DNA from: Pseudomonas sp. B21-028
Lineage (GTDB): Bacteria; Pseudomonadota; Gammaproteobacteria; Pseudomonadales; Pseudomonadaceae
Direction: 5' to 3'
Assembly: GCF_024749045.1 (NCBI RefSeq)
Contig: NZ_CP087184.1
Location: 5,332,001 to 5,396,000 of the forward strand
DNA length: 64,000 nucleotides
In this document: in pieces, positions 29,082 to 61,200 of the stretch
Layout: each line of letters opens with the position of its first letter
Position numbering within the stretch: position 1 is the stretch's first letter
Translations under genes and position numbers: made by a program
Notes under the pieces: generated by a model
Databases searched by the model: none
Told to the model about the DNA's origin: nothing
What the model saw: the letters and a program-made list of their open reading frames with translations, nothing else

Positions 29082-29286
29082 GGCGCGGATTGAAGGAAAA
29101 GCCTTATAGATCGGAGATTTAGGAGCGTTTCAGGAGGGGCAACAAGAATCTGACGTAGGATTTTTCACCTCAACCCGAGCAACCACAGGAAGCTGCGCGC
29201 ACAAGTTAAAGTGATTTGTTAAGAGTAAGATTTTTTTGGTCTTAGGAATTGCGTCTGCCAGTGATTTCGGCAGGGAGGGAAAAGGT

Positions 29287-29640
29287 GGAGAGTCGATCTG
29301 TAAGCCGGGTTCTGTCTTGAACAGTCATTCGTCTACGATGGCCATCACTGGACATCTTTAGCAACCTACCCGGTCCCAGCGCGGGCCACGCCTTGGGACC
29401 CTATTTGGTCTTGCTCCAAGTGGGGTTTACCTAGCCACGAACTGTTGCCAGCCGTGCGGTGCGCTCTTACCGCACCTTTTCACCCTTACCGGCGCCGAAA
29501 CGCTTAGGCGGTTATTTTCTGTGGCACTTTCCGTAGGCTCACGCCTCCCAGGCATTACCTGGCACTTCGCCCTATGGAGCCCGGACTTTCCTCCCCCCCC
29601 TAATTCTCATAGAGGGCAGCGACTGTCCGATCGACTCTCC
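29287..29640 (-). ncRNA. rnpB: RNase P RNA (bacterial type A)
   Basis: This is the catalytic RNA that matures tRNA 5' ends. On the minus strand the transcript begins near AGAGTCGATCGGACAG. It contains the conserved core GAGGAAAGTCCGGGC, then AAAGTGCCACAGAAA, and ends with ACAGAACCCGGCTTAC followed by a segment (GATCGACTCTCC) that pairs with the 5' end (P1). Its length of about 354 nt is normal for type A. End points are accurate to a few bases only. It lies between mraZ and rsmI, as in other pseudomonads. Confidence 0.95.
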
Positions 29641-34304: not shown

Positions 34305-34344
34305 AAAACGGTGCTTCTTCAGACGGGGAAGCGCCGTTTTTTTT
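34305..34344 (+). terminator. Rho-independent terminator after dolP
   Basis: AACGGTGCTTC pairs with GAAGCGCCGTT (one G-T pair) across a 10-nt loop and is followed by eight T residues, 36 bp after the dolP stop. It closes the lpoA operon just before the repeat island. Confidence 0.88.
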
Positions 34345-34350
34345 GGGGGG

Positions 34351-34678
34351 TTGGTTAGTGTGTATATCCGTTTGTGCGGTGACGGCTACTGGCGGTTCCG
34401 CCCTTACGGCGGGTCACTTTTGGAAGAGCGCCAAAAGTAACCAAAAGCGCCTCGCCCCACCACTGGGCACCTCGCCAAGGCTCGGTGTTCCCTCACTCCG
34501 GCATCGCTCCGTGGGCCCGCCGCGAAGGGCCATCCATGGCCCAGCGCGGCTATCCCGGCATCCATGCCGGGATACCCACTACGCAATGCCTGCGTTCGGC
34601 CCTTGTGGTTAATGGGGCGTCTAAGATCAAAAGCAAAGCAAAAGCAAAAGCGAGGCGGCGTTACGGCCGGCCTGTCTC
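34351..34678. repeat. ~330-bp structured inverted-repeat arm, left copy
   Basis: The whole stretch recurs in reverse complement at 36243-36575, at roughly 85-90% identity by eye. It contains nested hairpins: 34398-34412, 34416-34438 (ACTTTTGG/CCAAAAGT), 34519-34550 (GCCGCG-AA-GGGCCAT with its mirror) and 34551-34574 (TATCCCGGCAT with its mirror). A run of GCAAAAG units follows at 34628-34650. Short open frames through it look fortuitous. I know no named family for it. It is non-coding space between dolP and the IS element. Confidence 0.85.
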
Positions 34679-34723
34679 TAGGGCTGCACCTCAATTCAAC
34701 TAATGAGATGGCTACCCCCGCTG

Positions 34724-34758
34724 CCCCCTGTGAACGCCCACTAAGCTTTCACAGGGGG
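34724..34758. repeat. 11-bp hairpin in the IS left end
   Basis: CCCCCTGTGAA and TTCACAGGGGG surround a 13-nt loop, ending 20 bp before the transposase ATG. In RNA it would lie in the transposase leader and may limit read-in translation, as described for other transposases. That role is an inference. Confidence 0.75.
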
Positions 34759-34778
34759 ATCTACCGGAGACCGCCGTC

Positions 34779-35807
34779 ATGAACAAAGTAGCCGTTGTCG
34801 CCATCGACCTTGGAAAGCTCACCTTTCACGTACATGAGCAAGATGATCAGGGGCATCCACTTCTGCGCAAAAAGTTTAAGCGAGTGGAGCTCCTCCAGCA
34901 TCTAGCAAATCTCGAACCGTGCATCGTCGTGATGGAAGCCTGTGGTGGGGCCCATTTCATGGCGCAAGAAGTCGCCAAGTTTGGGCATTCTCCCAAACTG
35001 ATAGCGCCTCATCTCGTACGTCCTTATGTGAAAAGCAACAAAAACGATTTCGCCGATGCCGAGGCAATCTGCGAGGCCGCCAGTCGTCCCACGATGCGCT
35101 TTGTACCGGTTAAAAACCAAGCTCAGCAGGCTTTGGCGATGCTCAACTCGGTGCGCGACTCGTTCATTAAGGATCGCACGGCGACCGTCAATCGGATCCA
35201 TGCAGCGTTTCTGGAAGTCGGCGTCAGCCTGACTCCAGGCTACAAATCGCTCAAGGACATACCAGCCCTGTTGGAGGCAAGTTCATTTCATGGGCTCATC
35301 CGCAAACTCCTGGCGGACTTGTACGAGCATTACCTCTACCTCAATCTGCGTATCAAGGCGTTAGACAAGGAGGTCGACTGCCAGGCCGCTGGAGATGATC
35401 TGGCCTCCCGCCTGATGACAATGCCGTGCGTGGGTCCGATCACCTCCAGCGTCCTGGCTGCCGAAGTGGGCGACGGTAAGCAGTTCAAATGTGGTCGAGA
35501 CTTCTCAGCGTCAATTGGACTGGTCCCCAAACAACACTCAACGGGCGGACGGACGGTACTTTTGGGCATCAGCAAGCGTGGCGATCGAAATCAAAGGCGC
35601 CTGTTCGTCCAGTGTGCCCAGACGTATGTGAACAGGCTGGATCGACAGGAAGGGAAGCTGGCCGATTGGGTTCGCAAGCTCCTGGCCAGCCACCGTCACC
35701 GCAACCTTGTGGTCTGCGCACTGGCCAACAAGTTAGCCAGGATCGCTTGGTCAATTGCGGCAAACCATACGGTATTCGATGCAGGGCCAAGCGCGATGAA
35801 CGCCTGA
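34779..35807 (+). CDS. IS110/IS1111-family transposase (DEDD)
   Basis: The 342-residue transposase appears full length and intact. The N-terminal RuvC-like DEDD domain has Asp10 (VVAIDLGK), Glu53 (VVMEACGG), Asp90 and Asp93 (NDFADAEAI). The C-terminal Transposase_20 domain starts near PCVGPITSSVLAAEVGDG and contains FSASIGLVPKQHSTGGR, where Ser245 is the likely nucleophile by analogy with IS621. The QHS-x-GG...GISKRGD wording is that of the IS1111 branch. The start ATG at 34779 follows a CCGGAGA ribosome-binding site. Such enzymes use an element-encoded RNA to choose their target. Confidence 0.92.
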   Translation: MNKVAVVAIDLGKLTFHVHEQDDQGHPLLRKKFKRVELLQHLANLEPCIVVMEACGGAHFMAQEVAKFGHSPKLIAPHLVRPYVKSNKNDFADAEAICEAASRPTMRFVPVKNQAQQALAMLNSVRDSFIKDRTATVNRIHAAFLEVGVSLTPGYKSLKDIPALLEASSFHGLIRKLLADLYEHYLYLNLRIKALDKEVDCQAAGDDLASRLMTMPCVGPITSSVLAAEVGDGKQFKCGRDFSASIGLVPKQHSTGGRTVLLGISKRGDRNQRRLFVQCAQTYVNRLDRQEGKLADWVRKLLASHRHRNLVVCALANKLARIAWSIAANHTVFDAGPSAMNA

Positions 35808-36043
35808 CCCCGCTATTACCCGAGCACCACCTACCTGGTTTTGCGATGCTGGATAACAGATGACATGAACGGCTAACCGGCCTGACGAAAACCCTGGGCT
35901 CCCACACGGCTGCAAGGCCGTTCAACTAATCAGGATCGTCGGGCATCGAATTCTCATCAAGGCGCGGGGGACGCAATTCCCCACCCAGACGCCGGATAGA
36001 TGAAAGCAAGCCAAACACGCATCAAAGACAGTATTGCAGAAAA
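35808..36043 (+). ncRNA. Candidate bridge/seeker RNA region in the IS right end
   Basis: This 236-bp non-coding stretch lies between the transposase stop and the right inverted repeat. In the IS1111 group the target-choosing RNA is, to my knowledge, encoded downstream of the transposase. Visible stems include GGGG-N8-CCCC around 35966-35982 within a wider GGCG/CGCC stem (35961-35993), and CGGC-tgcaa-GGCCG near 35909-35922. The guide loops cannot be assigned without covariation data. Confidence 0.5.
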
Positions 36044-36058
36044 GGGGGTAACCATAGA

Positions 36059-36147
36059 TGTGGGAGCGAGCCTGCTCGCGATGGGGATGTGTCAGCCTAC
36101 ATCAATGCTGCTGACCTGAGGCCATCGCGAGCAGGCTCGCTCCCACA
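36059..36147. repeat. REPIN directly beside the IS right end
   Basis: REP arms of 24 bp at 36059-36082 and 36124-36147 face each other. The element begins only a few bases after the IS right inverted repeat (36044-36055). IS1111-group elements of pseudomonads are known to target REP sequences, which may explain the junction. Confidence 0.88.
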
Positions 36148-36193
36148 ATTGGTCGGGGACGGCGGGGAAAGATAGGTCGGCTGCCAGGTCGCC

Positions 36194-36217
36194 TCGCGAG
36201 CAAGCTTTGCTCCCACA
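36194..36217. repeat. Diverged single REP
   Basis: A lone REP unit with changes in the loop (GCAAGCTTTGC in place of GCAGGCTCGC), between the REPIN and the right structured repeat arm. Confidence 0.7.
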
Positions 36218-36242
36218 GGTGGATTCAGATACAACCGGAAAA

Positions 36243-36575
36243 GTCAGGCCGGCCATTAGGCCGCCTCGCTTTGGCTTTTGCTTTTGCTTTTGATCTTGGG
36301 TGCCCCGTAAACCACAAGGGCCGAACGCAGGCGTTGCGTAGTGGGCAACCCGGCATGGATGCCGGGTTAGCCGCGCTGGGCCATGGATGGCCCTTCGCGG
36401 CGGGCCCACGGAGCGATGCCGGAGTGAGGGAACACCGAGCCTTGGCGAGGTGCCCAGTGGTGGGGCAAAGACCTTTTGGTTACTTTTGGGGCGTTTGCCA
36501 AAAGTGACCCGCCGTAAGGGCGGAACCTTTAGTAGCCGTCACCGAAGAAACGGATATACACACCAACCCGTCAAA
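36243..36575. repeat. ~330-bp structured inverted-repeat arm, right copy
   Basis: Reverse-complement partner of 34351-34678. All the main hairpins are retained. The stem at 36347-36368 reads AACCCGGCAT/ATGCCGGGTT where the left copy has ATCCCGGCAT/ATGCCGGGAT, a compensatory T-A to A-T change. It ends at a run of seven A residues (36572-36578) next to the sspB stop, and so may also carry the sspB terminator. No coding gene lies in 35808-36589. Confidence 0.85.
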
Positions 36576-60972: not shown

Positions 60973-61029
60973 AACCTTTTTAAGACACAGCACTTGCCCA
61001 ATCGGATTTGCCTAGGCAGAATCCGCTCC

Positions 61030-61200
61030 GTCCTAGGGGAGTAGTCTCCCGCGAGCACCCTGCTCGCCCGGCATACGTCAACATACTTGGTCAGCAGACC
61101 ATGGCGTATGCGGCCCAAGCGTCCGGAACCGGTCGCAGGGTTTGACAAGACCTATGACACGCACACCTTACCCGGGGCGGGGAGGTTGTACGTGTCATAG
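61030..61200 (+). promoter_or_regulatory. yybP-ykoY (Mn2+-sensing) riboswitch
   Basis: The leader contains the hallmark GGGGAGTAG (61036-61044), then GTCAACATACT and the 3' half GCAGGGTTTGACAAGACC, in the order of the yybP-ykoY aptamer. It is followed by a 10-bp inverted repeat CTATGACACG (61152-61161) / CGTGTCATAG (61191-61200) that is the likely expression platform, ending 33 bp before the ATG of the transporter. This RNA family binds Mn2+ and commonly precedes this transporter type. Confidence 0.88.

Follow-up and report, generated by a model that had tools for sequence, protein, structure and literature searches.

Positions 34,351 to 36,575 of a 64,000-nucleotide stretch of the Pseudomonas sp. 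B21-028 genome (contig NZ_CP087184.1; the whole stretch is here called the window) hold two long, structured inverted repeats, which raise the question of what such a pair is and whether its structure serves as RNA or as DNA. A first-pass annotation, made from the letters alone, had described two inverted arms of ~330 bp. A repeat search of the window found three collinear inverted blocks exactly there, together making two arms of ~320 bp that are 86-92% identical block by block (Table 1). The arms are real, but reading them as two copies missed that they are the two ends of one unit, with an insertion sequence (IS) of the IS110 family and a REPIN, an inverted pair of repetitive extragenic palindromic (REP) sequences, in its middle. 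Our best reading is that the window holds one copy of a dispersed, non-coding, modular Pseudomonas repeat, resembling a miniature inverted-repeat transposable element (MITE), with two putative RNAs bearing hairpins of the CsrA/RsmA type.

The structure of the arms was followed in alignments of their copies. The loci fetched were those that best matched the arm in the window, which leaves out arms with the other cores described below, and 12 of the 80 regions were picked as known to hold two copies. Removing loci L008, L011 and L013, which repeat others, and copies shorter than 240 nt reduced 148 copies to 135 distinct rows, and a gap filter to 134; one 328-nt row was dropped from the 34 non-redundant copies to give a 33-copy alignment. 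In the latter, whose copies are related and hence not independent, 28 of 68 pairs carry changes on both sides. Pairing is kept in 98.1% of its cells; shuffles give 89.5%, and partners slid by 1-3 columns 33-46%. The covariation score was 0.249, compared with 0.092 in shuffles (0 of 500 reached it) and 0.012-0.054 in slid controls. Compensatory changes are thus far over background, which bears out the proposal of a selected RNA or single-stranded DNA (ssDNA) structure. Within the window, the pair T34553-A34572 of the left arm is A-T in the right copy, as had been claimed; the second reported change, from T-A (left) to T-G (right) at 34551/34574, is also present, though two steps out, beyond an unchanged A-T, and not in the next outer pair. 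The stem ACTTTTGG/CCAAAAGT is likewise constant between the arms while its loop differs.

The two strands can be told apart, since a G-U pair on one strand is an A-C mismatch on the other. On the strand carrying AYGGAY motifs, the 71 base pairs common to the folds of both strands (alignment of 135 copies) comprise 9,176 Watson-Crick, 131 G-U, 127 other and 32 A-C cells in 134 copies, and 2,303, 48, 40 and 7, respectively, in the 34 non-redundant copies. G-U exceeds A-C there, suggesting that the AYGGAY strand is the one selected, as RNA or ssDNA; in the ACTTTTGG hairpin, 28 of 33 copies have an inner U-G pair on this strand. Selection thus maintains a fold of several hairpins in each arm, and the G-U test assigns it to the AYGGAY strand.

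An account in which the arms are clutter of the REP or BIME (bacterial interspersed mosaic element) type, kept similar by gene conversion and with unselected structure, draws on the greater likeness of arms within a genome (0.869, 354 comparisons) than between genomes (0.808, 8,557 comparisons). It is made highly improbable by the compensatory changes, and the partners of a pair resemble each other less (0.829, 40 pairs) than arms of one genome do overall. A coding sequence was also rejected: the tested frame is open in only 27 of 96 copies, and the length of loop 1 varies between 5 and 6 nt among copies. The open reading frames are spurious, in agreement with the suspicion that such stretches are mis-annotated as short proteins.

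The arms had been thought to belong to no named family. This did not hold, as the centre of each arm matches the Rfam family TwoAYGGAY (RF01731) above its gathering cut-off of 43 bits (covariance-model score), on the outward strand in both arms. A match to a known Rfam family had been named as something that would refute the claim, and for the core such a match exists; the original interpretation is supported in part. The two adjacent GGA-loop hairpins of the family are present; the model's outer stem around them is unmatched in the window, where the core lies inside a ~320-bp paired arm, and some copies in other genomes match the full model, 1-168. In the own genome the model and DNA similarity pick the same 15 places, and all 15 model hits exceed the cut-off. 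TwoAYGGAY shares the Rfam clan CL00106 with PrrB/RsmZ, as seen on scanning the genome's own rsmZ. Its Rfam type is Cis-reg, and the table of Weinberg 2010, in the part of PMC2864571 available, marks it as a probable RNA that is not cis-regulatory. Binding of TwoAYGGAY to CsrA was put forward as a testable hypothesis by Gardner and Eldai in 2014 (accessible part of PMC4333381).

RF01731 matches occur in 21 of 40 genus genomes, with up to 52 copies scored in one genome (52 candidates scored per genome). Under stricter filters, with 9 candidates scored per genome, 18 of 274 class-sampled genomes have a match, the own one included. A CsrA gene is present in 18 of 18 RF01731-positive genomes searched, a weak indication, as no background rate was set beside the count. 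In distant loci the GGA loops are carried by different stems: by eye, 44 of 48 loops hold GGA in the 24 of 28 loci read (4 had a wrong offset or were too short), a count biased by the choice of loci with the RF01731 model. By eye, three of four close RF01731 pairs in other families have outward AYGGAY strands, and the remaining pair, below the cut-off, is tandem. We also noticed that several copies in other Gammaproteobacteria (L142-L169) have a long outer stem and that some genomes there hold multiple copies.

The site recognised by CsrA and RsmE is A(N)GGA within a loop that a C-G pair closes. Among the TwoAYGGAY-type arms, GGA is kept in loop 1 of 133 of 134 copies and in loop 2 of 132 while the stems change. 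Loop 1 reads AGGAC in 63 copies, ATGGAT in 45, AGGGAT in 18, AGGAT in 4, AAGGAT in 2, and ATGGAA and AGTAC in one each; in loop 2 the base preceding GGA is, by column, T, A or G. ANGGA occurs 2.44 times per core on the AYGGAY strand, 0.35 times on the other and 1.02 times in shuffles. A further AAYGGATA near the outer end is kept in most of the 134 copies. The loop of hairpin 4 is variable at most columns; that of hairpin 5 is well kept, so loop conservation is not special to the GGA hairpins. The G+C content is 59.8% for the arm plus flanks and 64.4% for the core.

These data are consistent with a mobile frame of modular build in which the TwoAYGGAY core works as an RNA, its two loops holding Rsm/CsrA dimers, a reading we favour tentatively and at somewhat less than an even chance. 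The RNA of each arm, which would come from read-through and not from a promoter of its own, would present a pair of A(N)GGA hairpins to a single RsmA/RsmE/CsrA dimer, and the dimer may be titrated or tethered as by a small decoy of the RsmX/Y/Z type. The arms share a clan with RsmZ and resemble RsmX/RsmY/RsmZ and CsrB/CsrC in having GGA in hairpin loops; they differ from these decoys in being multi-copy and dispersed, with ~2.4 ANGGA per core and no promoter or terminator signal found.

Several results weigh against an RNA that binds Rsm/CsrA proteins. Selection on ssDNA could give the same strand bias and covariation, and the G-U test is blind to the difference. Plain GGA is not enriched (5.35 per core, 5.39 in shuffles); ANGGA alone is. 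Loop 2 reads AAGGA in 22 of 134 copies, and RsmE interacted well with only ATGGA and AGGGA among ANGGA oligonucleotides, according to the available part of PMC9928087; these 22 copies therefore argue against uniform RsmE binding. Read on the AYGGAY strand, the sequence ahead of the arm shows no promoter enrichment (11.5% of 139; shuffles, 20.6%; none in the window), and outward terminators are found in 6 of 138 arms, leaving a sponge gene with its own promoter and terminator unsupported. A read-through RNA spanning the pair could, moreover, fold arm on arm and hide the loops.

The copies and their arrangement bear on the same question. The own genome (G000, 6.49 Mb, a single contig) holds 15 arm copies, 81-100% identical in a DNA search, and 131 of 149 genus genomes, G000 included, match at least part of the arm at E <= 0.001 (4 candidates scored per genome, partial-arm matches counted). 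Scanning the conserved stretch in named genomes gave at least 80 matches, all listed ones in Pseudomonas; among the matches listed are P. viridiflava, P. trivialis, P. veronii, P. brassicacearum and P. mandelii, and SBW25 and Pf0-1 are not among them. The impression that other fluorescent pseudomonads hold similar stretches was thus correct. Plasmid or phage carriage was rejected; the matches there were partial and came from a single phage record and from one plasmid record, the latter at 3 places.

At TwoAYGGAY-type loci, 49 of 51 neighbouring pairs (<1,500 bp apart) face inward with their AYGGAY strands outward, two are tandem and none faces outward; an additional tandem pair, at L012 in the own genome, was counted as one copy and stands outside the 51. 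Genome G016 has at least 10 close pairs, all listed ones inward by eye, 4 of them already within the 49, and G038 has one tandem pair among the matches listed. Four named-genome stretches with two matches, among the matches listed, comprise three inward pairs and one tandem. In 33 same-genome comparisons of pairs, the better assignment of arm to arm scored 0.914 and the other 0.828 (18 straight, 15 crossed), compared with 0.809 and 0.789 between genomes, and by eye 24 of the 33 have a gap above 0.05. This gap shows that two arm classes make up the unit, which is copied as a whole and in either direction (G016, G051, G058, G060, G100, G114, G120). Such copying was not seen in G000, G111 or G124, nor in two of three comparisons of G038; for the window pair in G000 the assignments scored 0.899 and 0.901, and 0.869 and 0.889.

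A purely selfish DNA repeat, in which ssDNA hairpins are recognised by a transposase (a REP-associated tyrosine transposase, RAYT, or another) that contacts the bases of the GGA loops, and in which nothing acts as RNA, is the main rival and a real possibility, albeit one we doubt. It accounts for units copied whole, for the lack of promoter and outward-terminator signals, and for the REP sequences near the arms: within 200 nt of the arm, the motif GTRGGAG directed away from it lies at the inner end in 98 of 143 cases and at the outer end in 5, and the reverse motif CTCCYAC at the inner end in 73 and the outer end in 41. REPs are RAYT substrates (accessible part of PMC2817692). REPIN patterns occur in 27 of 49 spacers and in 9 of 2,439 random windows, a contrast overstated by controls that are stretches of loci and mostly genic. 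The arms share with REP, REPIN and BIME elements their inverted, hairpin-forming and intergenic nature, often with a REPIN between them; unlike these they are ~10 times longer, and they stay constant while the spacer REP differs from genome to genome. Two inverted REPs with a short loop, the REPIN arrangement, are present at the unit's centre only and not in the arms.

Against the purely selfish account, the loop variants of the GGA core (ANGGAY, AGGAY) fit the CsrA-site pattern, and RF01731 elements of other Gammaproteobacteria hold GGA loops on different stems, though these were selected by the model. At least 11 sites are common, on both flanks, to species 78-95% identical, so that many copies are old yet still structured. 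The unit is copied whole to several sites as a MITE or other non-autonomous transposon would be, but without a target-site duplication signal: the flanking duplications for which the annotation had proposed mapping the ends do not rise above the null over 53 pairs (2 at or above its 95% point; mean 7.56, null 7.71). A single suggestive case is L055, where an intrinsic terminator is apparently split, with a 12-bp imperfect repeat. Spread of the unit would depend on an enzyme supplied in trans.

The arm frame also carries other cores. Among the 19 of 40 genomes without an RF01731 match, 16 with an earlier DNA match were rechecked and all 16 matched the arm again. Seven of these (G010, G015, G018, G028, G032, G033, G035) have 16 to 33 matches each, of which those listed extend for the most part over query positions ~8-164 only, the arm's outer half; by eye, at least 11 close pairs among the matches listed all face inward. 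Nine arms were folded, 8 of them from four of the seven genomes, and 8 have a different core, with a GGGATTGATCC.. stem, a GTTTGGCGAAGCCAAAC-type hairpin and a GAGGAGGTGCAGCGAAGC stretch. An A(N)GGA hairpin loop is absent from the other-core folds read, making the GGA core dispensable for the paired repeat, and an Rfam scan of these regions named no family in the arms, only riboswitches and C4 RNA outside them. Genome G022 has four close pairs in the opposite arrangement, with one CAGGGACG hairpin (GGA) per arm in the four regions read. The arm is therefore modular, strict orientation being limited to TwoAYGGAY-type copies; these results weaken the RNA reading and strengthen that of selfish DNA, for which one frame with different cores and arrangements speaks. 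Sister forms of these two kinds lie at L357-L361 (arms) and L386-L389, and the other-core pairs at L358 and L359 are flanked by two outward-pointing cobalamin riboswitches.

The GGA core is probably one among several carried by a common arm frame. The fullest form of the RNA reading, which we consider unlikely, is a mobile frame with interchangeable structured RNA cores, of which the TwoAYGGAY one spreads Csr/Rsm-binding hairpins; tens of chromosomal copies would together determine how much RsmA/RsmE is free and so couple the load of repeats with the Gac/Rsm life-style switch, and sister lineages would carry the same frame with a core that has no Rfam name. The loops resemble docking sites for the regulator CsrA/RsmA, a hint that a DNA repeat may, as it spreads, act on a control network of the bacterium; should the arms bind RsmE, a dispersed repeat would be a source of regulator sponges. 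The core swap in sister lineages makes the question testable, as one frame exists with and without GGA loops.

The neighbouring genes, called with a codon-score caller written for this analysis, suggest a further alternative, a bidirectional transcription-end or insulator module in which each arm stops transcripts from the adjoining gene. The outer end meets a gene's 3' end for 87 of 116 neighbours within 300 bp, and 28 of 93 copies with a gene transcribed toward the element begin 3-25 nt past its stop codon. Each window arm holds a terminator-like hairpin in the sense direction (34397-34413, plus; 36524-36508, minus), and beyond the outer end inward-pointing terminator-like hairpins occur in 24 of 138 cases, against 27 and 43 of 466 on the two strands of random control windows from the loci, which are mostly genic and overstate the contrast. 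Nevertheless, the G-U test favours the opposite strand, and of the 43 pairs for which a gene was called on either side, 22 are flanked by tandem, 4 by head-to-head and 17 by tail-to-tail genes; a tail-to-tail bias is, in the available part of PMC2718517, common to intergenic repeats generally. We regard such a module as quite improbable.

In the window, the enlarged spacer is accounted for by the IS110-family IS, which carries both Pfam domains. Genome G111 has an arm pair at the same site with a different spacer, and the IS segment is extra relative to it. All four identical copies of the IS in the genome stand immediately ahead of TGTGGGAGCG, the REP start, indicating that the IS entered through the REPIN; this later insertion, at the REP edge, is probably recent and pushed the arms apart. 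The IS is an insertion into the unit and probably not its mobile agent: 44 spacers of <500 bp among the pairs are too short for a 1,357-bp IS. We also observed that a 26-nt stretch across the left edge of the IS (34682-34707) recurs, at 77%, in its 3' non-coding part (35908-35933), and could be the guide segment of a seek/bridge RNA. Among 29 relatives' loci at the window site, 23 have both BON and sspB, with matches 48-366 bp apart and without an arm; the remaining 6, where BON went undetected, showed no arm either. At no more than 86% identity these relatives are too distant for the junction to be read.

Table 1. Features of the paired unit in the window
Feature	Position	Strand	Details
Inverted block 1	34418-34637/36283-36502		220 nt, 92%
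Inverted block 2	34353-34436/36485-36568		84 nt, 86%
Inverted block 3	34635-34677/36242-36284		43 nt, 88%
Left arm of paired repeat	34360..34680	- (AYGGAY strand)	sequence, repeat and similarity searches; outer end GTGTATATCC at 34360-34369; inner end an AAAAGC-rich tail
TwoAYGGAY (RF01731) core, left arm	34513..34577	-	53.8 bits; model 45-113 of 168; hairpins GGC-AUGGAU-GCC and GGCC-AUGGAU-GGCC
Right arm of paired repeat	36242..36561	+ (AYGGAY strand)	outer end GGATATACAC
TwoAYGGAY (RF01731) core, right arm	36343..36407	+	55.0 bits; model 45-113 of 168
Third conserved AYGGAY (ACGGAT), close to outer end	36550..36555	+	partly within weak stem
IS110-family insertion sequence	34702..36058	+	1,357 bp; comparison with G111, copy search
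IS110-family DEDD transposase gene	34779..35807	+	342 aa; PF01548 and PF02371
REPIN-like inverted REP pair between arms	36059..36147		halves 36059-36084 and 36122-36147, 100% complementary
Terminator-like hairpin and T run just outside left arm	34305..34344	+

The TwoAYGGAY core and the proposed CsrA link are already in print; new here are the architecture of paired arms in two classes, the test of strands, the statistics on the loops and the exchange of cores. Their combination was not found in the literature searched, of which mostly papers outside subscription were available, and five conserved arm strings gave no match there. The repeat may be among the P. fluorescens intergenic repeats described in 2009 (accessible part of PMC2718517), R200 (320 bp, 47 copies in SBW25) and R26 (352 bp, 20 copies in Pf0-1), to which it was likened by description and not by sequence: size, copy range, tail-to-tail bias and G+C content (60.3% and 60.8%) are similar, while pairing, fold and a link to Rsm are not named for them in that part of the paper. 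Three subjects meet in this unit: an orphan Rfam family with a predicted link to CsrA, the intergenic repeats that abound in fluorescent pseudomonads, and the biology of REPINs.

Hairpins similar to that outside the left arm form a dispersed terminator repeat of ~60 bp in G038 and G124, GTAATGCTGTTCACTT..AACGGCGCTTC..GAAGCGCCGTTTTTTTT (L332-L346), which often adjoins arms, stands beside many units and also apart from them, and is seemingly nested in other terminator hairpins. The spacers at L046 and L005 hold other DNA, including an open frame like a small Pseudomonas protein, presumably of the DUF6124 type. Elsewhere in the window, a yybP-ykoY manganese riboswitch matches at 61023-61143 (57.6 bits), and class A RNase P RNA lies at 29285-29638 on the minus strand.

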